From the NCBI GenBank assembly GCA_016788705.1, contig JAEUSQ010000021.1, positions 1-64,000 of the forward strand: 64,000 nucleotides of DNA. Reading direction: 5' to 3'. The notes beneath the pieces are model-generated. The model was not told where the DNA came from, made no database searches, and saw only the letters and a list, made by a program, of their open reading frames with translations. The translations under genes were made by a program, and so were the position numbers. Of this stretch, positions 39,795 to 52,323 are shown piece by piece. Within the stretch, counting starts at the first letter, position 1; the number at the start of each line of letters is the position of its first letter. This DNA comes from Bacteroidetes Order II. bacterium. Its GTDB lineage: Bacteria > Bacteroidota > Rhodothermia > Rhodothermales > UBA2364.

Positions 39795-40748
39795 TCAATC
39801 AAGCTGGCGGAGGAGCCGTTCTACCTGCTTTTCGCTGTTAAGACCCACTTTGGGCGCAAGTTGAGACCTGGAAAGGTCGGGCGTTCGGGAGAATTCTCGT
39901 AGTTTTTGGATACGGACTTGGGTGATGAATTGATTGACCGTAAGCCCCGTTTCTTGTTTGAAGGTACGTGTTAGGTTTCGTTCACTCATGCAAGCCACGT
40001 CTGCCAGTGAAGCGAGGTTGTGCTTCTGGTCTATCTTTTCGATAATGTGGTCTTGTACGGCATGGATGCCATAGTGTATGTGGTTCCGGTAATTGAAATA
40101 AGGACTTATCTGGTGGTCTCCTCCTTTTCTACGGTTATATACCACCAATTCTTTGGCGACCTTATGGGCAAAATAACTATCGGTAAGTCCTTCTAATAAA
40201 TACAACATGAGATCTATTCCAGAGGCAATTCCAGCACTGGTATGGATGCGGCCTTCCGAAAGGTACAATACATTTTCGATGACTTTTAGCTGAGGAAAAT
40301 CTTTTTTGAGTTGTTGGATTAACTGAAAGTGGGTGGTACAAGCCCGTTGGTTTAGCACACCCGCTGCGGCCATGACAAAAGCCCCCACACAAATACTGAC
40401 CAAGTGGGCCCCATTCTGGTTGGCCCCTGCAATCCAATGAAATAGCGCCTCTTGTTTCCGGAATGCATCAGACATAATGTATTTGACCCGCGATCCTGGG
40501 ATAATAATATAGTCTCCTGCGGCATAGGTCACCTCGGAGAAGTGCATTAGTCGGTGAAGGCCCAAGCCTGCAGAGGTTTGGATTTCGTGCTCGATGCCAC
40601 AGTACACGATCTCGAAGTTGGCGCCAAAATCTATGGCCTCGCTCAAGACTTGGTCTGGCCCCGCAAGATCCAGTAGGTGAACTTCCGGTAAAACAATAAA
40701 AATGAACTTCGTTCGGCGCATGGGATAAGGGGTTGTTATGATGGACAT
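39795..40748 (-). CDS. GlxA-type AraC-family regulator with DJ-1/PfpI domain
   Basis: A 317-residue protein. The N-terminal DJ-1/PfpI-like domain (about 13-195) starts FIFIVLPEVHLLDLAGPDQV and has SICVGAFVMAAAGVL, with the cysteine at the position of the class nucleophile, and THFQLIQQL. The C-terminal AraC DNA-binding domain (about 235-317) has SLADVACMSERNLTRTFKQE and TVNQFITQVRIQKLREF. The protein stops right after the second helix-turn-helix, VGLNSEKQVERLLRQLD, slightly shorter than usual. It is divergent from the GbsR-headed operon across 213 bases and may help control it. Confidence 0.87.
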   Translation of the reverse strand: MSIITTPYPMRRTKFIFIVLPEVHLLDLAGPDQVLSEAIDFGANFEIVYCGIEHEIQTSAGLGLHRLMHFSEVTYAAGDYIIIPGSRVKYIMSDAFRKQEALFHWIAGANQNGAHLVSICVGAFVMAAAGVLNQRACTTHFQLIQQLKKDFPQLKVIENVLYLSEGRIHTSAGIASGIDLMLYLLEGLTDSYFAHKVAKELVVYNRRKGGDHQISPYFNYRNHIHYGIHAVQDHIIEKIDQKHNLASLADVACMSERNLTRTFKQETGLTVNQFITQVRIQKLREFSRTPDLSRSQLAPKVGLNSEKQVERLLRQLD

Positions 40749-40892
40749 GCTCTACACGGAAAGAATAAGTCAAAATACATGCATAAGGCATAGACAGCAA
40801 GGGCAAGATACCCCGAATTAGTGGCTGCTTCATGTATCAAATTGGTTTTATTGCCGATAGACAAATATTTTGGGCATTAACTCATAAAATGC

Positions 40893-40923
40893 TTGCGCAA
40901 CGGAAAGCGCTTTCTTATATTTC
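40893..40923 (+). promoter_or_regulatory. Putative promoter of the GbsR-headed operon
   Basis: TTG at 40893-40895 and TATATTTC at 40916-40923 are 20 bases apart, close to the Bacteroidota consensus TTG...TAnnTTTG. The predicted start of transcription is near 40930, about 32 bases before the GbsR-like ATG. A perfect palindrome lies between the two boxes. Confidence 0.45.
40903..40914. promoter_or_regulatory. Perfect palindrome GAAAGCGCTTTC (candidate operator)
   Basis: This 12-bp perfect palindrome with a central CG resembles operators of LacI-family regulators. It sits between the putative promoter boxes, where a bound repressor would block polymerase. A near-identical site lies at the promoter of the beta-glucan operon (61421-61432). 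No LacI-family gene is in the window. Confidence 0.5.
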
Positions 40924-40927
40924 AATC

Positions 40928-40945
40928 GTTTGAAAATTATCAAAC
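40928..40945. promoter_or_regulatory. Near-perfect palindrome GTTTGAAAATTATCAAAC
   Basis: Arms GTTTGA and TCAAAC are exact complements and 16 of 18 positions are symmetric. It overlaps the predicted transcription start and lies 16 bases before the GbsR-like gene, the usual place for an autoregulatory operator of a winged-helix repressor. Confidence 0.5.
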
Positions 40946-40961
40946 AAAACAAAATTTATAA

Positions 40962-41465
40962 ATGTCGCTTGAACTCTCACCCCTGCAACACGAATTGGTC
41001 GTAGAATTTGGCAATATCTATGAAAATTACGGTTTTCAACGGATTAAAGGACTCATTGTGGGCCTTCTACTGGGTCAGCCGGAACCCATGAGCCTCGATG
41101 ATATCGTGGATGCGTTGGGCCGCTCTAAAGGTCCGATTTCCACGGCGGTTCGTGAGCTTTCTACGATGGGTATTTTGCGAAAGGTGACTGGTCCGGAGAA
41201 TCGTCGGGATTATTATACCACCCACCCCGACTTATTCTTCAACAACTTTATGTTCAACATGCAAACGGTACGGCGCAATCGCCGCATTGCCGAGCAGTTT
41301 TTGAACGAGGTATCGCCGGATGCACCCGGAAACGGACATCTGACCCGAAATTTGGAACACATGCGTGCTTTTTACACGCTTATGGAGACTTTTTACCGCA
41401 ACTTCTCGGAAGAATGGAAATCCCAAAAACCCCTTTCCAATCGTCACGAAGAGGAGCGTTTTTGA
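40962..41465 (+). CDS. GbsR/MarR-type transcriptional regulator
   Basis: A 167-residue protein of the GbsR class. It begins LSPLQHELVVEFGNIYENYG, then GLLLGQPEPMSLDDIVDALGRSKGPISTAVREL, the helix-turn-helix with recognition helix, and ILRKVTGPENRRDYY as the wing, followed by long helices for dimerisation. GbsR-type proteins usually repress transporter genes and respond to the transported compound. It is the first gene of a plus-strand operon with a TonB receptor 38 bases downstream, so it probably senses the imported ligand or a product. Confidence 0.88.
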   Translation: MSLELSPLQHELVVEFGNIYENYGFQRIKGLIVGLLLGQPEPMSLDDIVDALGRSKGPISTAVRELSTMGILRKVTGPENRRDYYTTHPDLFFNNFMFNMQTVRRNRRIAEQFLNEVSPDAPGNGHLTRNLEHMRAFYTLMETFYRNFSEEWKSQKPLSNRHEEERF

Positions 41466-41503
41466 TCATCTTACTGACCTAATCATCCAAACCCAAACAA
41501 AAA

Positions 41504-44074
41504 ATGAAACCTTTCCGCACGTTATGGGCCTGCGGCGTGGCATTGCTTTGCGTGATAGCGCCAATGGTGTCTGCACAAACGGTAAGTGGTATCGTCCGAG
41601 ATAGTGGCTCTAATACACCACTGCCTGGCGTTACAGTAGCCGTTGTTGGTTCTTCTACAGGAACCGTTACCAGCACGACGGGGGCTTATTCCCTTCGTGT
41701 GGGCAAAGCAGGTACGTTTAGCATCCGATACTCGTTTGTGGGATATGCCACCGAGACCCGCACCGTATTGTTGGCCGTAGGAAAAGACCAAACCTTAGAT
41801 GTTTCGCTGAATCCGGTAACACTTTCTGGAGACGAGGTGGTGGTTACGGCTTCTCGCCGTCCCGAAAAGCTGACCGAAGCGCCGGCTTCTATTAGCGTGA
41901 TTACGGCTAAAGATTTAGACCAAATTGCCTCGTTTAATGTGGGCGAACTGGCCTCAAAGATTCAAGGGGTAGAGTTCGTTCGGACGGGTGTAACAGGTGT
42001 GGGCTTTAATGCACGTGGCTTTAATAATGCCTTTAATGCGAAGGTAATGGCCATGACCGATGGCCGAAACTCCATGATGGCGGGTGGAAGTGGCCTGCCT
42101 GCGGGGATTATGAATACCGTGATAAAGGAAGACATCGAGCGATTAGAAGTAGTGCTAGGCCCGAACTCGGCATTGTATGGCCCGAATGCGCATAATGGTG
42201 TGGCGAATACCATTACCAAAGACCCGCGTCGCCATCCGGGAACCACCGTTGCCCTGTCTGGTGGAAATCAAAGTGTACTTTCAGCACGCTTACGTCATGC
42301 GCAAACCCTGGGCGATAAGTTTGCTTTTAAGGTAACGGGTGAGTTTACCAAAGGGGAAGACTTCGACTTTAGGGATAGTGTTTATGTAGGGGGGACTTTT
42401 TATGGTCGTGTCCGCTCGGTTCCGGAACGCAATGTGGACCACACCTTCCAACACATTCGGGGTGAAGGTCATTTATACTTTACGCCCAAAGCCGGAAACG
42501 ATATTATCTTGTCGTATGGCGGAAGCGTAAACGATTTTCTGAGTGTGAACAATGTGGGGCGTAACCAAATCCGAGACTGGAAATTCTCCTATGCCCAAGC
42601 CCGTTATGTATCACCACGTCTATTTGGTCAGGTTTATTATACCTGGACAGACGTAGGAACCTCGTATGGTATCACCCCTTACACCCGTGACTACACGAAC
42701 CGCATCAACAGTACCATTACCGATGCCACCAACCCCTTCTTTCCGGTAGTGGGGCGTTTATCCTCCGAAGCCGCTGATGCTTTTGGTCTCCGTTTGGGTA
42801 ACCAATTCAAGGAAAAATCGGGGCGGTTAAATGCCGAACTGCAATACAACAACTCGTTTGAAGCATTGGGCCTAAACGTTGTAGCCTCGGCGAATTACCA
42901 AAATGACCAACCCAATACCTTTGGAACCTCCATTGCAGACAGCACGGTTCCCGGGCAAGAAGGCACCCTCATTAATGTCACCCAAATGGGAGCCGCCTTA
43001 CAATTGGAAAAAACCTTGCCTGTGGGCTTCAAATTGGTGGCTGCGGGGCGCTTAGACAACCATAGTAACTTCGGCAACCAGTTTGCACCGAAAGTAGCGC
43101 TTGTAAAAACGGTGGGTGATGGTGCGTTTCGGGCAAGTTATGGCCGCGCTTTCTCGAATCCGTTGATTTTATTTCAATATGCCTATATCTTCAACATCGT
43201 TTATGGCAACGGAAAAGGCATTCGTTACATCCCGAATGGGGCCAATGTGAATGACGCAGCGGCCATTAAAACCACCGACCCATTGCGTCCAGAGCAAATC
43301 GGAACGTATGAAGTGGGGTATAAAGGAACGTTCAACAAAAAAGTATTTGTGGATGTAGCCGGATATTATGGCAAAACCAAAGACTTCTTGAGTCCTTCGA
43401 TCGGTATTTTGGGCCGCCCGCTTTCAATGGGAGATATCGAAATTAAAAATACCGCGCTTCCAGGAGCGGTTAGTGCAGCGGGTGTTCTTTCGGGCGCACA
43501 ATTCCTTACCTACTTCAACTATGGCCAAGTGGACGCTTGGGGGGTGGACTTGGGGATAAACTATTACCTTAACAAGAATACTACACTTGGGGTGAAGTAT
43601 TCTTGGTTCGACTCCGACATCACAGACGGAGACCTCAAAAACGATGCAAACCGTGACGGTGTGGTCTCGGCAGAAGAGCGAAGCCTCAATGCCCCCAACC
43701 ACCGTGTAGCGGGTACGTTGAGTTTGGCCAATATCGCCGGAAAACCCCTCTTTGCCAACATATCGGCTCGGTGGGTACAAGAATACGATTTTTATTCCGG
43801 AAACCAGATTGGTACGGCGGCTGGCGAAGGCAAACGTGGGGTGGTCTCGGTTACCCTGCCCTCTGGCACAGCGGCCAGCTACCTTAAAAACTGGGATCAT
43901 GGTGCATTGGGCGGCTTCACTACGGTGGACCTAAGTATGGGCTACGCCCTGAACAAGGTGTTCTCGCTGGGGGCTGCGGTCAGCAATGTCTTTAATGTAG
44001 AACAACGCGAATTTGTTGGTTCGCCTTCTATCGGACGGTTGATTTCGTTTGAGCTCAAAGCCAATATGAAATAA
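41504..44074 (+). CDS. TonB-dependent receptor of the GbsR-headed operon
   Basis: An 856-residue outer-membrane receptor. Signal peptide (1-24, ending VSAQ), carboxypeptidase-regulatory-like domain (about 25-105, SGIVRDSGSNTPLPGVTVAV), plug domain (VVVTASRRPEKLTEAPASIS, LGPNSALYGPNAHNGVANTI) and barrel ending FVGSPSIGRLISFELKANMK. The EVVVTASRR TonB-box-like region is clear. It has no SusD partner, so it resembles siderophore- or small-ligand-type receptors rather than SusC. The following genes code for acyl-handling and carboxylate-transport functions, which suggests an ester or lipid-like ligand. Confidence 0.93.
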   Translation: MKPFRTLWACGVALLCVIAPMVSAQTVSGIVRDSGSNTPLPGVTVAVVGSSTGTVTSTTGAYSLRVGKAGTFSIRYSFVGYATETRTVLLAVGKDQTLDVSLNPVTLSGDEVVVTASRRPEKLTEAPASISVITAKDLDQIASFNVGELASKIQGVEFVRTGVTGVGFNARGFNNAFNAKVMAMTDGRNSMMAGGSGLPAGIMNTVIKEDIERLEVVLGPNSALYGPNAHNGVANTITKDPRRHPGTTVALSGGNQSVLSARLRHAQTLGDKFAFKVTGEFTKGEDFDFRDSVYVGGTFYGRVRSVPERNVDHTFQHIRGEGHLYFTPKAGNDIILSYGGSVNDFLSVNNVGRNQIRDWKFSYAQARYVSPRLFGQVYYTWTDVGTSYGITPYTRDYTNRINSTITDATNPFFPVVGRLSSEAADAFGLRLGNQFKEKSGRLNAELQYNNSFEALGLNVVASANYQNDQPNTFGTSIADSTVPGQEGTLINVTQMGAALQLEKTLPVGFKLVAAGRLDNHSNFGNQFAPKVALVKTVGDGAFRASYGRAFSNPLILFQYAYIFNIVYGNGKGIRYIPNGANVNDAAAIKTTDPLRPEQIGTYEVGYKGTFNKKVFVDVAGYYGKTKDFLSPSIGILGRPLSMGDIEIKNTALPGAVSAAGVLSGAQFLTYFNYGQVDAWGVDLGINYYLNKNTTLGVKYSWFDSDITDGDLKNDANRDGVVSAEERSLNAPNHRVAGTLSLANIAGKPLFANISARWVQEYDFYSGNQIGTAAGEGKRGVVSVTLPSGTAASYLKNWDHGALGGFTTVDLSMGYALNKVFSLGAAVSNVFNVEQREFVGSPSIGRLISFELKANMK

Positions 44075-44179
44075 GCCAGTTATCGAAAACGGGTGGTGGT
44101 TCATCCAAACTGCCACCCGTTTTTGCTCATTAAACTCACCAAACCGCTTTTCTACACACGAGTCGGATTTAAAAGTAGT

Positions 44180-45166
44180 ATGCGCAAAGCCAAAATTATC
44201 GGAACAGGTTTGTATGCACCGGAACGGGTGATCCCTAATACATTCTTCAATGACCTTTATCAACAGGATGTAGATGCTTTTCTGCGCGAAAACCGCCATA
44301 TTTTTGAGCGGCGATACATGACAGACGAACAAACCACATCCGATCTGGCCGCTGAAGCAGGGCGGCGCGCCATCCAAAATGCGGGTCTCCAGCCGCAAGA
44401 CATTCAATTGGTGGTAGTTGCGACTGATACGCCAGACTTCCTCTCGCCTTCTACGGCTGCCATCGTACAACATAAAATAGGCGCTACCGGTGCCGGATCC
44501 TTCGACATCAATACCGCCTGTGCCGGATTTGCGACGGCCTTGGACATCGGCAGTAAATACATTGGGGCAGATCCGCGCTATCAATACGTTTTGGTGATTG
44601 GGGCATATGGCATGAGCCGCTTTTTGGACTTCAGAGACCGCAATGTCGCCACACTTTTTGCAGATGGTGCAGGTGCGGTGGTACTAACGCCCTCTGAAGA
44701 CGAAAGCGGGGTTCTGGCTTCTCGTTTATGGTCCGATGGTCAGTACAACGACTATATGGGTCTTTATGTGGGTGGAGCCGCAACACCCCCAACCGAAGTC
44801 CTGATTCATGAACAACAACATTTGCTTCAATTCCGGAAAAAATTCCCCAAAACGTTTAATTTTGACCTTTGGACGGGGGTGATTCAAGCATTATGCGCCG
44901 AGTTGGGCATAACGACACAAGAGGTGGATCGTTATTTCTTCACCCAAATTAACATCCTCACGATCCGCGAGGTACTGGGGCATTTCGCGATTCCAGAAAC
45001 CAAAACCCATTACATCATGGACCGATATGGTTATACCGGAAGCGCCGCCATTCCGATGGCCCTGGCCGATGCCAACGCGGCGGGTAAACTCCGTCGGGGA
45101 GATTTGATCTTTATCGTTACCTCTGGCGGTGGAGCGGCCATGGCTGCGTTAGCGCTCCGCTGGTAA
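44180..45166 (+). CDS. Ketoacyl-ACP synthase III-like protein with altered catalytic triad
   Basis: A 328-residue thiolase-fold protein of the FabH/KAS III type. The acyl-accepting cysteine is C114 in FDINTACAGFATAL. The residue that should be the catalytic histidine (HQAN) is T255 in FFTQIN, and the asparagine (GNTSAA) is Y285 in YGYTGSAAIP. Loss of both speaks against ordinary decarboxylative condensation and for acyl transfer, hydrolysis or acyl binding. The C-terminal RRGDLIFIVTSGGGAAMAAL is intact. The frame is open to 44093; ATG 44180 begins the conserved MRKAKIIGTGLYAPERV. It lies between the TonB receptor and the symporter. Confidence 0.85.
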   Translation: MRKAKIIGTGLYAPERVIPNTFFNDLYQQDVDAFLRENRHIFERRYMTDEQTTSDLAAEAGRRAIQNAGLQPQDIQLVVVATDTPDFLSPSTAAIVQHKIGATGAGSFDINTACAGFATALDIGSKYIGADPRYQYVLVIGAYGMSRFLDFRDRNVATLFADGAGAVVLTPSEDESGVLASRLWSDGQYNDYMGLYVGGAATPPTEVLIHEQQHLLQFRKKFPKTFNFDLWTGVIQALCAELGITTQEVDRYFFTQINILTIREVLGHFAIPETKTHYIMDRYGYTGSAAIPMALADANAAGKLRRGDLIFIVTSGGGAAMAALALRW

Positions 45167-45196
45167 ATTTTTCAACCCCTCACAAAAGATACCTTT

Positions 45197-46666
45197 ATGG
45201 ATTCGCACGTCATTGGTTGGATTTTTTTTGGCATATATGTGGCCTTTATGGCCTATGCCACCTATCTCGGTCTTCGTCAGAGCAAAGGCTTGGCCTCTTT
45301 TTCGGTGGGTAATCGTCAGGTCAACCCGACTTGGGTGGGTCTATCGTTGGCGGCCAATCTGACAAGTGCGGCCACTTTTGTAATCAATCCCGGCTTGGTC
45401 TATCACTTTGGAATGGCTGGATTTTTAGGATATGCCGTGGCGACACCGCTGGGCATTATGGTGGGGCTGATCATTGTCTCCAAGAGTTTCCGGCGGGTGG
45501 GCGATCAGTTTGCGGTTTTAACGGTTCCACAATGGATTGGCGACCGATTTGGGGATAAACGGCTTACGCTTTTTTATGCCTTTTTAAGTTTATTGCTCAT
45601 TACTTTTTTGGTATTGATTACGGTTGGATTGGCCCGTGTCTTGGGAGCGTTGCTGGGTATAGATTTACTGGTGGCCATTGCCATCGTCATCATTTTACCA
45701 TTGGTGGCCATTTTTCTTGGTGGCGCAGGCGCACATATTCTCATCAATTCGGTACAGGCACTTATCATGCTTGTGGTGGCACTAATCTTGCTCGGCTCTG
45801 GTATTTCGTATTTTGCGGACGGGCTTGGCGGGTTCTTAGAAAAACTGAGGGCCATAGACCCCTGGCTCGCCCAACCAATCAACCCCAAGAGTGCACTTTT
45901 TAGGAATTTCTTTGAGGTCTATGTGGCCAATTTTATGATTGGCGTGGCGGTGATTATGCAGCCGCATATTATTTCCAAAGCCCTTTATCTCAAGACAGAA
46001 AGTGATGTAAATAAATACCTTACGACAGGTCTTGTAACGGTTTTCTTCTTCTTCATGGTGCTGGTCGTCGGTGCTTTTGCCCGCATCCAGTTTAACGATC
46101 CAAGTCTTGCCGTAGATGCCGTCATGCCCCGCTATCTGACCGATCATTTTGGGCCTGTGGTTCGGGGAATTGTAGCGCTTGGCCTGCTTTCTGCGGGTTT
46201 TTCTACGATGGAAGGCTTGCTCGTTTCGCTCTCAGCCATCTTTGCCAACGATGTCTATAAAAACCTTTTCCCCCAACCCGAAAAATCTCGAGAGGACGCG
46301 GACCGACAGGCGCTACGATATGGAAAGGGTTTTTTGGTGGTATTGGCCCCGGTATTATTTCTGATCTCTGCCAGCCAAATCAAGCCCGATCTATCGGTAG
46401 CAATGTTGGCACAAAATGGCGTTTATGGACTGTTTTCAGCTACTTTTGCGCCCGTTTTATTTGGGATTTTCTCTAAACGACTTACAAAAATGGGCGTATT
46501 GATCACGGCTTTGACCGCTATTGTGATTCATTTTGGCATGACCTACGGCAAAATAACCTTGATGTCCAATAACCCCGCCGTTCCGGCTACCTTTGCCCTT
46601 ATCGGCAGTTTGATCGTCGCTACGTTGTTCGTCCTCTCCAACCGTCCGTCCTTCCATAAAAGATAA
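45197..46666 (+). CDS. Sodium:solute symporter, monocarboxylate type
   Basis: A 489-residue inner-membrane protein with about 13 hydrophobic segments and the SSS family pattern: YLGLRQSKGLASFSVGNRQVNP, LAANLTSAATFVINPGLVY, VPQWIGDRFGDKR and GLLSAGFSTMEGLLVSLSAIFANDVYKN. These resemble acetate and monocarboxylate permeases (ActP/MctP) more than sugar symporters. In its operon it would bring an organic acid into the cytoplasm with sodium. It starts 30 bases after the ketoacyl synthase-like gene and is followed after 5 bases by the acyl-CoA ligase. Confidence 0.87.
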   Translation: MDSHVIGWIFFGIYVAFMAYATYLGLRQSKGLASFSVGNRQVNPTWVGLSLAANLTSAATFVINPGLVYHFGMAGFLGYAVATPLGIMVGLIIVSKSFRRVGDQFAVLTVPQWIGDRFGDKRLTLFYAFLSLLLITFLVLITVGLARVLGALLGIDLLVAIAIVIILPLVAIFLGGAGAHILINSVQALIMLVVALILLGSGISYFADGLGGFLEKLRAIDPWLAQPINPKSALFRNFFEVYVANFMIGVAVIMQPHIISKALYLKTESDVNKYLTTGLVTVFFFFMVLVVGAFARIQFNDPSLAVDAVMPRYLTDHFGPVVRGIVALGLLSAGFSTMEGLLVSLSAIFANDVYKNLFPQPEKSREDADRQALRYGKGFLVVLAPVLFLISASQIKPDLSVAMLAQNGVYGLFSATFAPVLFGIFSKRLTKMGVLITALTAIVIHFGMTYGKITLMSNNPAVPATFALIGSLIVATLFVLSNRPSFHKR

Positions 46667-46671
46667 CCTGT

Positions 46672-48171
46672 ATGAGAACAGACTGGCTCGCCCGAAATGC
46701 ACAATATTACCCACAAAAAACGGCCCTCATCTGGCAGCCGGAAAACCGACGGCTTTCTTATTTAGAATGTGACCATTTGGGCAATCAAACAGCCCATTGG
46801 CTCCTCACACAGTACAACCTCAAGGTGGGCGATCGAGTGGCGGTGCTTGCCGAGAATAGTTTGGCGCATATCCTGCTTTTTTTTGCCTGTCAGAAAGTCG
46901 GACTCATCCTCGTTCCACTGAATTATCGCCTTACCCCCTCCGAGGTGCAATACATCGTTGAGGATAGTGAACCGGCGGTACTCTTCTATGGAGACGCTTT
47001 TGCCGAATATGTAACAAACGCAAAGCCGATTTGTTTGCCTATAACAAAAGTGCTTCAGGTTATTGAGAATAAAGAACTTAGTTTGCCATCGTTTCAGCAA
47101 AATCCAGACGATGCCGTTATGATCCTTTACACCTCTGGCACAACTGGACGACCCAAAGGAGCCATGATCACGCACAAGATGCTGGCCTTTAATGCGTATA
47201 ATACCATCATGCGTCTCGACCTGACCACCAAGGACATCTCCTTCAACGCCGCACCGTTTTACCATACAGGCGGCTGGAATGTCCTGCTAACGCCCTTTCT
47301 TTTGCTGGGAGCAACCACCATTTTATTAGACCGCTTTGATCCGGCGGAAATCCTCGAACTAGGCGAGAACGAGCAAATGAGTATCATCTGGGGCGTACCA
47401 ACCATGATGAAAATGCTTTCGGATCATCCCAATTTCGGAAGGGTAAATCTCCAAAGTGTGCGATATGCAATTGTAGGCGGCGAACCCATGCCAATTCCAC
47501 TTATCCAAACTTGGCAACAAAAAGGCGTACCCATTCGGCAAGGGTTTGGGATGACGGAAGTTGGACCAAACTGCTTTTCTTTACCCGAAGAAGACGCCAT
47601 CCGTAAAGCCGGATCCATTGGCTTTCCTAATTTCTATGTGGACGTTCGGGTAGTGGACGATTTTGGCAACGATGTGCCTGCCGGAACCACGGGCGAACTG
47701 CTCATGCGCGGCCCCATGACTACCTCTGGATATTGGCGGAATGAACCTGCAACTGCCCAAGCCTTGCAGAATGAATGGTTCTATACTGGAGACTTGGTGC
47801 GTGTGGACGAAGAAGGGTATTTCTATGTGGCCGGACGTAAAAAAGACCTGTATATTTCGGGCGGCGAGAATGTGTATCCTGCCGAGGTGGAAAAGGTTTT
47901 GTACCAACATCCTGCGGTGGCCGAGGCTGCCGTTATCGGCATACCAGATGCCAAATGGGGCGAAACAGGATTGGCCTTTATTGCCCTAATGCCGAATCAA
48001 AACGCTACCGAGGCGGAAATCATCGCCCATTGTCAGCGTTTCCTTGCACGTTATAAAATCCCAAAATACGTCCACTTCCTGCCCGAATTACCCAAAGGCC
48101 ATAGTGGTAAAATCCTAAAACGGGAACTGGCAGATCGTTTGAATACCCCGAATACTACATCAACCTTATGA
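46672..48171 (+). CDS. Acyl-CoA ligase (ANL superfamily)
   Basis: A 499-residue adenylate-forming enzyme that links a carboxylic acid to CoA using ATP. The P-loop is YTSGTTGRPKGAM (153-165); QGFGMTEVG is the adenine-binding motif; YTGDLVRVDEEGYFYVAGR carries the hinge; ISGGENVYPAEVE and the C-terminal lysine in LPKGHSGKILKREL complete the motif set. Substrate class (fatty versus aromatic acid) is not clear. It is the natural partner of the acid symporter 5 bases upstream and overlaps the downstream hydrolase gene by 4 bases. Confidence 0.93.
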   Translation: MRTDWLARNAQYYPQKTALIWQPENRRLSYLECDHLGNQTAHWLLTQYNLKVGDRVAVLAENSLAHILLFFACQKVGLILVPLNYRLTPSEVQYIVEDSEPAVLFYGDAFAEYVTNAKPICLPITKVLQVIENKELSLPSFQQNPDDAVMILYTSGTTGRPKGAMITHKMLAFNAYNTIMRLDLTTKDISFNAAPFYHTGGWNVLLTPFLLLGATTILLDRFDPAEILELGENEQMSIIWGVPTMMKMLSDHPNFGRVNLQSVRYAIVGGEPMPIPLIQTWQQKGVPIRQGFGMTEVGPNCFSLPEEDAIRKAGSIGFPNFYVDVRVVDDFGNDVPAGTTGELLMRGPMTTSGYWRNEPATAQALQNEWFYTGDLVRVDEEGYFYVAGRKKDLYISGGENVYPAEVEKVLYQHPAVAEAAVIGIPDAKWGETGLAFIALMPNQNATEAEIIAHCQRFLARYKIPKYVHFLPELPKGHSGKILKRELADRLNTPNTTSTL

Positions 48172-49127
48172 GAACACTTTTTTTTAATCTGCTGATTTTT
48201 ACTCTTTTGGCTGGATGTCAGGCCACAAAAATACCTACCATGCCCGTTACCGATGCCTTGCCCCACGCCCTTGCTCCCCTCAAAAAAATAACCGTTGGCA
48301 ACCACCAAATTGCTTTTTGGGAAGGCGGAAAAGGCAAAGAGGTGCTTTTGTTTGTACATGGCTTGGGTTCCAACTCATCTTTTTGGAAGGAAAACCTGCC
48401 AGCATTCACCGAAGGGTACCGCGTCATTGCCATAGATCTGCCTGGTTACGGCGCTTCGTCTAAGGAGCAAGTGCCGGCGACCATGCCGTGGTTTGCCGAT
48501 CAAGTAGCGGCTTTTCTGACAGCCATGCGAATCGAAAAAGTGACGTATGTGGGCCTCTCTATGGGTGGACAAATCGGGATGACGCTCGCACTTCAGCATC
48601 CGGACAAGGTGTCGAAGCTCGTTTTGGTCTCGGCGGCTGGCATAGAGACCTTCGACGAAAAAGCCCGTACGAGTCTAAGGAACTTCATGACCGTCAAGTC
48701 TATTATGGAGGCCACCGACCCACAAATCACGACCAGTATTGCCCTTAATTTCGATACGTATGACGCCCCAAAATTTGGATGGTTGGTAGAACAACGGAAA
48801 GCATGGAAAACCCGGCCAGACTTCCGCGCCTATGCCGAGGTCAACGAAAAATCGGTTTCTGGCATGTTGGACGGGGCTGTCTATGAGCAGTTGGATGTCC
48901 TCCACCTCCCTGTTTTGGTTCTTTATGGCAAGGGGGACAAAATGATTCCAAACCGTTTCTTTAATCCCGGCCTCACCACAGCAGACATTGCCAGTCGCGC
49001 CGGAAGTGCCCTCCATAATGCAAAAGTGGAGTTGGTGGAAAAAGCCGGACACTTGTTGCCATTAGAACAGCCGGAAGCATTTAATCGCGTGTTACTCACA
49101 TGGCTAAAGAATTCACCTTCCAAATAA
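48168..49127 (+). CDS. Lipoprotein alpha/beta-hydrolase
   Basis: A 319-residue protein with a lipoprotein signal (LLIFTLLAGC, lipid at C17) and an alpha/beta-hydrolase fold. Oxyanion loop VHGLGSNSSFW, nucleophile S131 in VGLSMGGQ, acid in YGKGDKMIPN and histidine in AGHLLPLEQP are all present, so it should be an active esterase, lipase or amidase. Lipid anchoring outside the cytoplasm places it upstream of uptake: it could release the acid that the symporter imports. The ATG overlaps the ligase stop by 4 bases. It is the last gene of the operon. Confidence 0.92.
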   Translation: MRTLFFNLLIFTLLAGCQATKIPTMPVTDALPHALAPLKKITVGNHQIAFWEGGKGKEVLLFVHGLGSNSSFWKENLPAFTEGYRVIAIDLPGYGASSKEQVPATMPWFADQVAAFLTAMRIEKVTYVGLSMGGQIGMTLALQHPDKVSKLVLVSAAGIETFDEKARTSLRNFMTVKSIMEATDPQITTSIALNFDTYDAPKFGWLVEQRKAWKTRPDFRAYAEVNEKSVSGMLDGAVYEQLDVLHLPVLVLYGKGDKMIPNRFFNPGLTTADIASRAGSALHNAKVELVEKAGHLLPLEQPEAFNRVLLTWLKNSPSK

Positions 49128-49333
49128 TGGTCATTCCTGTCTTATGACGGAACAACTTTAGGTATTGGCCAAAGACCAAGTGTAGGATAAGGTTATGGTT
49201 TTTTCCTATCGTTTTCGCCCTGCCGAACCTGTGGTCTTTGCTTATGAGACATCAAAATAGGTCTCTCGCAAAGCCAGATCATTCAAGTGAACGGCCTAAT
49301 CGGCTGAAACTAAACCCAGAAGGTTTTATACCA

Positions 49334-49376
49334 AAGGAAAAGGGAGCCTGCATCTGCGAGACTCCCCTTTCCTTTT
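49334..49376. terminator. Bidirectional terminator between two operons
   Basis: A long stem pairs 13 of 14 positions (AAAGGAAAAGGGAG against CTCCCCTTTCCTTT) around a 15-base loop, with T-rich sequence on the plus side and A-rich on the other. It separates the converging acyl operon (plus) and beta-glucan operon (minus). Confidence 0.8.
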
Positions 49377-49405
49377 CTCTTCATCAAACAATGTGATATG
49401 GCTTC

Positions 49406-50827
49406 TTATAACTCGCCTCTTCTGCGTACAAGTTCCGCTTTAATTTCCTTTGCTTTTTCCTCGGATAAGTCGTAATTCCACATCAACCAAATAGCCAGCG
49501 CGGCTGTTATGGCAGGCAGAGCAATATCGAAAATACGTAAAAGCGTCATTGTTTCGGCGGTCTGTATCGCGGCATTTTGGTCAAATCCAGCTACTTTTAG
49601 TACAATTCCCCCTAAAAACAACGCCAAGGCTTGACCAAGTTTGACCATCCACCAATAAATGGCGCCAAAGGTTCCTTCTTTTCGTGGCATACCATTTTCC
49701 AACTCGTCCAAGTCGCACACATCGGCGGTCATGCTCATCATTAAGGTAAATAAGCCGCCCAATCCAAAGGCAATAAATGGAACAGGCATAAAAATCATCC
49801 AAGGGTTTTCCGGATTAAATCCCCACCATTTCAGAATATACCCAATAATCGAAATGAAAGTAGAAATTACAAATGCCGTCCGCTTCCCATATTTATTGGC
49901 CAACATGGTGACAATAGGAATAACCAAAAAGGCCGTTGCCAGGGCACTAATGGTAGAAAACCAAGCAGGTAAAGTGCCAGCTGCTTCGTAACTACCATTA
50001 AACATGTAAAAAACAATAATAAAAATACTAAATGAAGCAACCATTTGAAAGCCGTTGAAGACCAAAAAAGTCGCTCCACATAGACGCATAAATGGAATAT
50101 TGCGGCTCATGTTCTTAATATCTTTAAATAACTTACCTAAATTATTAAAGGTGTTTTTTAAGGTTAAGTCTGCTTGGTTTTCAATATGAGAAGCGGCTAC
50201 TTCTTTACAAAAAATAGCTGGCAAAATGCCGAGAATAATACACGCAATACCTACTATAATAGATAAAGTGCGAACACCTTCTGCTTGTGTGGCAAACAAA
50301 TTTGGATCAGCAACCAATACCCAGAACCAGGGCACAATCATCCAAGCCAATTGGCTTACTGTTTGAGAAAAGCCCATCAACCTTGTTCTTTCTTTATAGT
50401 CACTTGTCATTTCATACCCCAAACCAATTAATGGGGTAGAAAACATGGTATTAAATAAAATAAATATAATAGAGGTAATCAAAAAATACCAAAAATTAAA
50501 AACAGTTCCATTTGCCTCACTCATTTGCCATTGAACAAAAAAGAAAATACCCGCAAAGATAGCACCCGCAAAGATATAAGGCCTTCTTCGTCCCCACTTT
50601 GATTTCGTATTATCAGAAATAAAACCCATAATTGGGTCTGATAAAGCATCTATAAAACGAGGAATGGCAGACAGCATACCTGCATACACGGGGTCAATTC
50701 CAAATCCTGTTAGTAAGAAAAAGGAAAAAACCCCCAAGGCACCCGGAAAAAGATTATTCACCAAGTGACCAGCACCAAAGGCCATTTTTTGGACGATCGG
50801 TACACCCTGATTGATCTGGTTACTCAT
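49406..50827 (-). CDS. GPH-family glycoside:cation symporter (MFS)
   Basis: A 473-residue inner-membrane transporter with about 12 hydrophobic segments. DALSDPIMGFISDNTKSKWGRRRPYIF is the MelB/GPH signature, with GLGYEMTSDYKERTRLMGF and SMTADVCDLDELENGMPRKEGTFGAIYWW also typical. These carriers take up oligosaccharides or glycosides with Na+ or H+. At the end of the beta-glucan operon, 2 bases after the GH30 gene, it probably imports gluco-oligosaccharides for the cytoplasmic phosphorylase. Confidence 0.9.
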   Translation of the reverse strand: MSNQINQGVPIVQKMAFGAGHLVNNLFPGALGVFSFFLLTGFGIDPVYAGMLSAIPRFIDALSDPIMGFISDNTKSKWGRRRPYIFAGAIFAGIFFFVQWQMSEANGTVFNFWYFLITSIIFILFNTMFSTPLIGLGYEMTSDYKERTRLMGFSQTVSQLAWMIVPWFWVLVADPNLFATQAEGVRTLSIIVGIACIILGILPAIFCKEVAASHIENQADLTLKNTFNNLGKLFKDIKNMSRNIPFMRLCGATFLVFNGFQMVASFSIFIIVFYMFNGSYEAAGTLPAWFSTISALATAFLVIPIVTMLANKYGKRTAFVISTFISIIGYILKWWGFNPENPWMIFMPVPFIAFGLGGLFTLMMSMTADVCDLDELENGMPRKEGTFGAIYWWMVKLGQALALFLGGIVLKVAGFDQNAAIQTAETMTLLRIFDIALPAITAALAIWLMWNYDLSEEKAKEIKAELVRRRGEL

Positions 50828-50829
50828 AA

Positions 50830-52323
50830 TTAATTATGGGGTTTTAGGGTTATGGTTTGCAAACTTTCTTGATCTAAATTAAATATGTGAGAAAAACCAT
50901 CCAGATGAATGGAGACAGTCTGGGGCTTTTTCTCTTTATTTAACAATACCAAGACAATAGAATGATCTGTATTTTCGACAGCGGTTGCATGGATAGTACT
51001 ATTTAAGTTTGAAAGGCCAATTCTATGTGCTCCCGGTCTGATGAATTTGCTAAAATGCGACATCACATAATACAAAGGCGTAAAATAGACTTCATCTTTT
51101 TCTACGTTTACAATGATGGGTGCAATACACCAATTTTTAAACCAATTTGGTCCACCTTGTTGATCCAATACCATGTTCCAGTCAATCCAGCCTTCTACCC
51201 AGTGATTTAAAGAGCCGATAATGTCTTCGGCGTAACGATAGACGGGTACATATTTAGGATGGAGGTATTTTTCATGCTCAGATGCCCAATCGTAACCCCA
51301 ATCTGTGGCATGGGGCTGCCAATACCATTGATCATTCTGCCATACAGGTACTTCTGCATCTATACAGGCTTCTGTCTGAATTAAATGTTTTTCGGGTGCT
51401 TTATGATGGGCATAATCCAACGCTTCCGGGAAATAGTCGTAGGTGCTTTCATACCAATGTATGGCTGTTCCATGAAAATAGCGACTACTTTCTGATGTGC
51501 GATACATTTCATCTACCCAATTTTTTAGGTCCGCCCTATTTTGATCATAACCTAAAATTTTAATACTTTTATATCCATTTTTTTCAAGGTGAGGGCCTAA
51601 ATAGTATTGTACAAAATTGGTCATTTCTTGTGGAGTATAGTGCATACTTTCCCAATTATTGCCATTCCCATTTGGTTCATTCTCTACGGTAATACCCCAA
51701 AATGGAATTCCATGTCTTTTGTAGGCATCTAAGTATTTTGAAAAAAACAATGCCCAAGTAGCGTAATATTCTGGTTTAAGTTTACCCCCCACCCAATGGT
51801 TATTGTCTTTCATCCAAGGGGGAGCTGTCCACGGAGAAGCAATTAAGTTAAAGCCTTCTTTAGAAAATTTTTGTGCTTCTTTGATAATGGGAATAATGGA
51901 TTCTTCATCATGACGTATGTCAAAATTTTTTAGTAATGTATCGCCTGGTGTCATCGCATATGCATAATGATCAAGAGAAAAATCTGATGAATTCATTTGG
52001 GTTCGACACAAAGAATAATTTGCTCCTTCTTGTCCAAAGTATGCGTTTAATATTTTTTTTCGGTTTGCCACACTCAATTTTTGTAATAAATATGTAGTTG
52101 CTTCGGTGAAAGCACCACCAAATCCCAATATTTTCTGAAATTTAATCTTAGGCTGAATCCGAATAATCACACTGGGAGAGGTTGTAATGTTTTGAATACT
52201 TACCGCTGTCAAAGCATCTCCACTAGCAGAAGATTTCCATGCATTTACTTCCCAACTTTTAGCCTGCGACATAACCGTATCTATCCCCAAGAAAATAACA
52301 AGAAATAAAAAAAAGTATCTCAT
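50830..52323 (-). CDS. GH30 beta-glucosidase/endo-beta-glucanase
   Basis: A 497-residue exported enzyme (signal peptide about 1-19, ending VMSQ) of glycoside hydrolase family 30, the glucosylceramidase-like type. ILGFGGAFTEA, then YSLCRTQMNSSDFS and SPWTAPPWMKDN match the family; E216 in ITVENEPN is the expected acid/base and E318 in LIQTEAC the nucleophile, followed by a C-terminal beta domain. In this locus it probably cleaves beta-1,6 or beta-1,3 glucose linkages of laminarin-like glucans, though other beta-glucosides are possible. It sits between the phosphorylase and the transporter genes with gaps of 10 and 2 bases. Confidence 0.9.
   Translation of the reverse strand: MRYFFLFLVIFLGIDTVMSQAKSWEVNAWKSSASGDALTAVSIQNITTSPSVIIRIQPKIKFQKILGFGGAFTEATTYLLQKLSVANRKKILNAYFGQEGANYSLCRTQMNSSDFSLDHYAYAMTPGDTLLKNFDIRHDEESIIPIIKEAQKFSKEGFNLIASPWTAPPWMKDNNHWVGGKLKPEYYATWALFFSKYLDAYKRHGIPFWGITVENEPNGNGNNWESMHYTPQEMTNFVQYYLGPHLEKNGYKSIKILGYDQNRADLKNWVDEMYRTSESSRYFHGTAIHWYESTYDYFPEALDYAHHKAPEKHLIQTEACIDAEVPVWQNDQWYWQPHATDWGYDWASEHEKYLHPKYVPVYRYAEDIIGSLNHWVEGWIDWNMVLDQQGGPNWFKNWCIAPIIVNVEKDEVYFTPLYYVMSHFSKFIRPGAHRIGLSNLNSTIHATAVENTDHSIVLVLLNKEKKPQTVSIHLDGFSHIFNLDQESLQTITLKPHN

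Follow-up and report, generated by a model that had tools for sequence, protein, structure and literature searches.

FabH and other KAS III enzymes, including PqsD and BioZ, have a common fold and an acylatable Cys; in FabH, a His and an Asn serve the decarboxylation of malonyl-ACP. The protein at the center of this study, here referred to as KAS, is encoded in a 64,000-nucleotide stretch of DNA (the window). It has the same full-length fold (Z scores of 39 to 46) and an acylatable Cys but contains an invariant Thr and Tyr instead of the His and Asn, and its genomic context is one of catabolism and import rather than fatty acid synthesis. Repurposed active sites are known elsewhere in the thiolase superfamily. 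Sal and Ltp2 are SCP-2-thiolase-type CoA aldolases, and Sal employs a Tyr together with a Cys to act on its CoA thioester (PMC12329534). Like KAS, these enzymes are thiolase superfamily members with an altered active site, and the MaoC and DUF35 domains of their partners are a further point of resemblance; they are not, however, of the KAS III type, and their Tyr and Cys occupy positions other than those in KAS (PMC12329534). By analogy, they may provide a precedent for Tyr/Cys CoA-thioester chemistry.

Several described gene sets resemble the locus in part. The OleABCD pathway combines a thiolase-fold enzyme, an alpha/beta hydrolase, an AMP ligase, and an SDR (PMC7064751); the unit described here differs in SDR type, in the KAS residues, and in having an exported lipoprotein hydrolase, importers, and a regulator. 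As in phaAB and ato operons, some of our loci place a thiolase beside a FabG/PhaB-like SDR, with an occasional PhaEC or AtoE neighbor; however, outer-membrane uptake, a secreted hydrolase, an AMP ligase, and KAS are foreign to those operons. The regulator shares a MarR-type DNA binding domain and a similar size with GbsR family regulators (PMC6207618), but no choline/betaine genes are nearby and its score is far below the CudC cutoff. What the locus shares with general operons for carboxylate uptake and CoA activation is an importer conserved together with a CoA-activating enzyme, a combination present in all 61 loci compared below. The original prediction knew of no described system with this gene set, and in line with this, no description was found in the open-access literature searched.

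Results

Gene content of the locus. The locus spans positions 40962 to 49127 of the window, and the features assigned to it and its borders are as follows.

40928..40945, strand not assigned: palindrome GTTTGA-AAATTA-TCAAAC, predicted operator of the GbsR-like regulator (recurrence beside regulator genes)
40962..41465, plus strand: GbsR/MarR-like winged-helix regulator (weak Pfam and NCBIfam matches)
41504..44074, plus strand: TonB-dependent receptor with a CarboxypepD_reg-like domain (Pfam)
44084..44125, plus strand: terminator- or attenuator-like hairpin with a U-run (RNA fold)
44180..45166, plus strand: KAS III-like protein with Cys114/Thr255/Tyr285 instead of Cys-His-Asn (alignment, predicted structure)
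45197..46666, plus strand: SSS family sodium/solute symporter, nearest named family PanF (domain matches)
46672..48171, plus strand: AMP-forming acyl-CoA ligase with intact motifs (domain matches, alignment)
48168..49127, plus strand: lipoprotein alpha/beta hydrolase with Ser131-Asp257-His295 and lipobox Cys17 (Pfam, alignment)
49333..49375, strand not assigned: hairpin between convergent genes, likely a terminator (RNA fold, z of -2.9)

The six plus-strand genes and their tight spacing are as originally predicted, and the domain calls agree. Gaps of 38 (regulator to receptor), 105 (receptor to KAS), 30 (KAS to symporter), and 5 (symporter to ligase) bases separate the genes, and the ligase and hydrolase genes overlap by 4 bases; KAS starts at the ATG at 44180, the GTG at 44093 being an over-long start. 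Two further claims held when the residues were inspected: the hydrolase is an intact Ser-Asp-His lipoprotein (lipobox LLAGC with C17; S131, D257, and H295), and KAS is an altered KAS III, with TQIN for HQAN and GYTG for GNTS/A. The strong terminator said to end the operon corresponds to a hairpin that lies approximately 200 nucleotides past the last stop codon, between convergent genes.

A second hairpin, at 44084-44125, had been overlooked in the original prediction. It was called by RNA folding and not by an automatic terminator scan; it recurs in two congeners, and the folding energy of the whole receptor-KAS gap is -30.4 kcal/mol (z of -3.7). As this terminator-like structure is located between the receptor and KAS genes, read-through into KAS is not certain, and the operon transcript may be split at this point. 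On either side of the operon are minus-strand genes: a DJ-1/AraC (FtrA/GlxA-like) regulator at 39795-40748 is divergent from the operon and is kept adjacent in the congener G001, and a GPH sugar symporter and a GH30 glycosidase (near an endo-1,6-beta-glucanase model) at 49406-52323 converge on it.

The gene families occur together in several phyla. KAS orthologues, with 52 to 91% identity to the window protein, were found in 14 of 60 genomes searched, window genome included; paralogues reach at most about 38%. Of 12 full-length KAS neighborhoods, 10 are complete for the six families; of the other two, one is without the regulator and one without the TonB receptor. A scan of 84,980 species genomes yielded 401 KAS relatives, the best 80 of which come, judging by taxonomy and the titles of the records, from Rhodothermota, Chlorobiota, Ignavibacteriota, Calditrichota, KSB1, Fidelibacterota, Krumholzibacteriota, and Bdellovibrionota. 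Within the phylum of the window, KAS is present in 56 of 394 sampled genomes, corresponding to 37 of 170 genera.

For a count of gene content, 61 distinct loci were used that have full flanks and do not encode Bdellovibrio-type hydrolases. An acyl-CoA ligase and an inner-membrane transporter (SSS or MFS) are encoded in every one of them, at most 9 kb from KAS and on the same strand. The hydrolase is found in 60 loci (the exception being L080, from Bdellovibrionota), and an outer-membrane component likewise in 60; an SDR and the regulator are encoded in 55 and 54 loci, respectively. In several lineages, the gene order is scrambled while membership is kept. Because the loci share ancestry, these counts reflect consistency and not independent events, and it is the swaps and scrambles that form the independent part of the evidence. 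Judged from gene content, the clustering is far beyond chance, and the families are kept together as a unit across no fewer than seven phyla of bacteria. Since they stay together in different phyla although their order is shuffled and transporters are exchanged, they form one functional unit, as had been proposed. The suggested search for these families in other genomes, which was to refute the proposal if they were not conserved together, favors it, with clusters in 54 to 61 of the 61 fully flanked relatives.

Bdellovibrionota have the enzyme core without a clustered transporter or regulator but with one or two other hydrolases, one of which has a signal peptide. This reduced set speaks against the unit proposed below; it may mean that transport takes another route in this phylum or that the enzymes are used differently there. 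At L077 (4745-9841) and other loci of this phylum, the SDR-KAS-ligase core and two hydrolases adjoin genes for cytochrome oxidase and related respiratory functions. A more distant version is located on the Chloroflexota plasmid CP069395.1 (L218, 5179-12957), where the SDR, a Cys-Thr-Tyr KAS, and a hydrolase are kept, a CoA-transferase replaces the ligase, ABC genes replace the importer, and a thiolase-like protein and a DUF35-type protein are added. Among annotated plasmids, this variant, with 38% identity, was the only relative of KAS, and no close one was found.

KAS has lost the FabH His and Asn. The predicted structure of KAS (pLDDT of 90) has the FabH fold; compared with 4ryb, it gives a Z score of 46.0 and an rmsd of 1.8 over 316 residues. 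Every one of the 93 aligned rows keeps Cys114 but has Thr255 for the catalytic His and Tyr285 for the catalytic Asn, whereas the two FabH-like paralogues of the window genome itself (L001 and L002) retain His and Asn. The replacement of this pair makes ordinary FabH chemistry unlikely, and the Cys-Thr-Tyr protein probably runs a reaction that has not been described, in which Cys114 and Tyr285 would be the likely reactive residues. Acyl transfer, the reaction originally assigned to KAS, is one among several candidates. A second KAS-like protein, of the PRK06840 family and also without the FabH His, is encoded beside KAS in six loci (L140, 12101-13132; also L142, L146, L165, L166, and L173); its relatives on haloarchaeal plasmids adjoin Liv-type ABC permeases.

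A predicted operator probably joins the locus to an unlinked SDR gene. The regulator was originally described as GbsR type, but it is a weak GbsR/MarR match: the curated CudC model gave 41.1 bits against a cutoff of 218, and in Pfam, HTH_27 is above its cutoff and MarR_2 just under. Choline or glycine betaine genes are absent from the families identified in the set and from its recurrent neighbors, and regulation by choline/betaine was rejected for lack of such genes. The most common inverted repeat 5' of the regulator gene is TTTGA-N6-TCAAA, with the extended consensus CGTTTGAAAnnTTTCAAACG. Exact copies of this consensus flank the regulator gene, at one end or at both, in 33 of 75 distinct loci, compared with a background expectation of 0.24 loci at the rate in the remainder of the same loci. 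The copy at 40928..40945 is the sole perfect match within the window, and in three genomes (G028, G051, and G012), the only two sites genome-wide both flank this regulator gene. We infer that the GbsR-like protein binds the palindrome and controls the unit, the site itself being a candidate with statistical support.

The six genes originally predicted are all present, but the enzyme core is completed by an SDR that the window does not encode. Its gene, of the FabG type, is located in other genera between the receptor and KAS genes, at the position of the 105-base gap and its hairpin. This SDR is approximately 248 amino acids long, has the conserved residues Ser143, Tyr156, and Lys160, and matches FabG models and FabG structures best. 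The window genome encodes this SDR on another contig; the protein has 64% identity to a cluster SDR of another genus and scores 372 bits against the cluster-SDR profile, compared with about 208 bits for its PhaB-like paralogue. A perfect copy of the palindrome lies approximately 170 bp upstream of its start in the window genome and in one congener. The unlinked SDR is therefore very probably in the same regulon as the operon, to which it would probably be joined through the predicted operator.

Interchangeable membrane components and additional enzymes. The outer-membrane component in the 61 loci is either a TonB receptor (21 loci) or a small lipoprotein with an AlgE/Occ-like porin (39 loci), never both. 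Well-supported branches of the KAS tree require five or more changes of the receptor state; the outgroups of this tree sit on long branches, and the position of its root is not relied on. The porin has an AlgE/Occ-type fold (Z scores of about 21 to 27), and Occ channels are known for passing carboxylates. The 520-amino-acid porin and its lipoprotein (L168, 3043-5207, and relatives) gave no Pfam match in the members tested. A SusC/SusD polysaccharide utilization locus was considered and rejected: none of the nine proteins of 39795-52323 has a SusD domain, and the TonB receptor scores 95 bits against a SusC/RagA cutoff of 368.

Additional members join the unit in some lineages and at varying positions: an acetyl-CoA acetyltransferase-type thiolase in about 10 loci and a MaoC hydratase in about 8. 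Rarer additions are PhaE-PhaC, which in one genus immediately precedes regulator-SDR-KAS, and a short-chain fatty acid transporter of the AtoE type, encoded in a single locus (L141). These extra members point to catabolism of 3-hydroxyacyl- and 3-oxoacyl-CoA. The window genome also has a separate polyhydroxybutyrate (PHB) synthesis operon, with phaE, phaC, a PhaB-like SDR, and a thiolase, on contig C25 (L149, 5667-11720).

Discussion

We consider it fairly probable that the genes form a single catabolic unit under common regulation, whose role would be to scavenge a small carboxylic acid that reaches the cell as an ester. The ligand would pass the outer membrane by way of the TonB receptor, or by way of the AlgE/Occ-like porin and lipoprotein in lineages that have these instead. 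The lipid-anchored hydrolase, whose triad and lipobox are evident, would cleave the ester outside the cytoplasm, and the freed acid would be brought in by the symporter, the family assignment of which leaves the substrate to conjecture. The ligase, with its intact motifs, would form the CoA thioester of the imported acid. The FabG/MFE-2-type SDR, whose gene is unlinked in the genus of the window, could then interconvert (R)-3-hydroxyacyl-CoA and 3-oxoacyl-CoA, and KAS may act on the thioester by nondecarboxylating C-C cleavage or by acyl transfer, giving acetyl-CoA or an acyl product. Control of the unit would be exerted by the GbsR-like protein through the palindrome. The first part of this chain, from uptake via extracytoplasmic hydrolysis and import to CoA activation, had been predicted and fits the conserved gene membership. 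Taken together, the Occ-type porin, the extra members, and the Chloroflexota version support carboxylate import, activation with CoA, and catabolism of the 3-hydroxy/3-oxoacyl-CoA. An acylated signal and a natural product had been named among the possible ligands; neither is singled out by the data, and the recurrent neighboring genes point to this catabolism.

As to KAS itself, a bolder and somewhat unlikely possibility is a new catalytic class of the FabH fold that uses Cys and Tyr, either as an acyl transferase or as a lyase that cleaves C-C bonds of CoA thioesters (retro-Claisen or retro-aldol), at the center of an undescribed, widespread scavenging pathway with interchangeable outer- and inner-membrane importers. 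The proposal that KAS is the sole thiolase is weakened by the true thiolases encoded in about 10 loci, which make a cleavage role look redundant there.

It is conceivable, albeit rather unlikely, that what the unit collects is (R)-3-hydroxybutyrate, or oligomers of it, released by PHB breakdown. The hydrolase would cut the oligomers, the ligase would form (R)-3-hydroxybutyryl-CoA, the SDR would oxidize this to acetoacetyl-CoA, and a thiolase or KAS would cleave the product. The PhaE-PhaC neighbors, the AtoE-type transporter, and the thiolase and MaoC genes are all consistent with this, as is the resemblance of the hydrolase to short-chain PHA depolymerases (about 100 bits, below the cutoff). 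Class III PhaC is present in 7 of the 394 genomes sampled from the phylum, and 5 of these 7, from just two genera, have KAS; however, most KAS carriers are without this PhaC. The extracellular PHB depolymerase PF10503 was found in only 1 of the 394 genomes, and general extracellular PHB degradation was rejected on account of this near absence. The PhaEC neighbors in one genus also mean that the genes near KAS could alternatively serve synthesis.

Lipid salvage seems unlikely to us. In this reading, fatty or 3-hydroxy fatty acids freed by the hydrolase are converted to acyl-CoA by the ligase, KAS hands the acyl group over to acyl carrier protein so that it can be used again, and the SDR serves as reductase. 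It would agree with a KAS that retains the acylatable Cys and has lost the His-Asn pair, with the best PDB match of the hydrolase (6i8w, which we take to be the phospholipase PlaF), and with the two hydrolases of Bdellovibrionota, one of them bearing a signal peptide. Nevertheless, an SSS symporter and an Occ-like porin would be a better fit for carboxylates that are small and polar than for fatty acids with long chains, and the thiolase and MaoC neighbors suggest breakdown. We regard as improbable a route for aromatic or phenylpropanoid (hydroxycinnamate-like) esters with CoA-dependent side chain shortening: the closest solved ligase structure is a feruloyl-CoA synthetase, and such a route proceeds by MaoC, SDR, and thiolase steps, but MaoC is confined to a minority of loci and ring cleavage or other aromatic genes are absent from the recurrent neighbors listed.

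A relative of the Ole olefin/beta-lactone pathway would share all four enzyme classes but is highly improbable; OleD is an extended SDR and the SDR here is FabG type, KAS is without His and Asn, the hydrolase is extracytoplasmic, and importers belong to the unit, and the SDR type and KAS residues led us to reject it. That the genes are unrelated neighbors on one strand, for which the internal hairpin might speak, is contradicted by the co-occurrence across phyla and the shared predicted operator, and this extremely improbable explanation was rejected on the conservation of the gene set.

In summary, the parts of the scavenging unit are known families and its overall plan is a known kind of system. 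As far as can be told, it is their combination that is new, as are the exchange of membrane parts between lineages, the operator predicted here, and the active site of KAS with its rebuilt residues. Since KAS is without the residues that define FabH chemistry, a FabH annotation is probably wrong wherever this protein occurs. The predicted operator, together with a relocated SDR gene that retains it, offers a direct genetic handle on the pathway. If the proposed function is true, this would be a common, as-yet-unnamed route of carbon scavenging across Rhodothermota, Chlorobiota, Ignavibacteriota, Calditrichota, Fidelibacterota, Krumholzibacteriota, and Bdellovibrionota.
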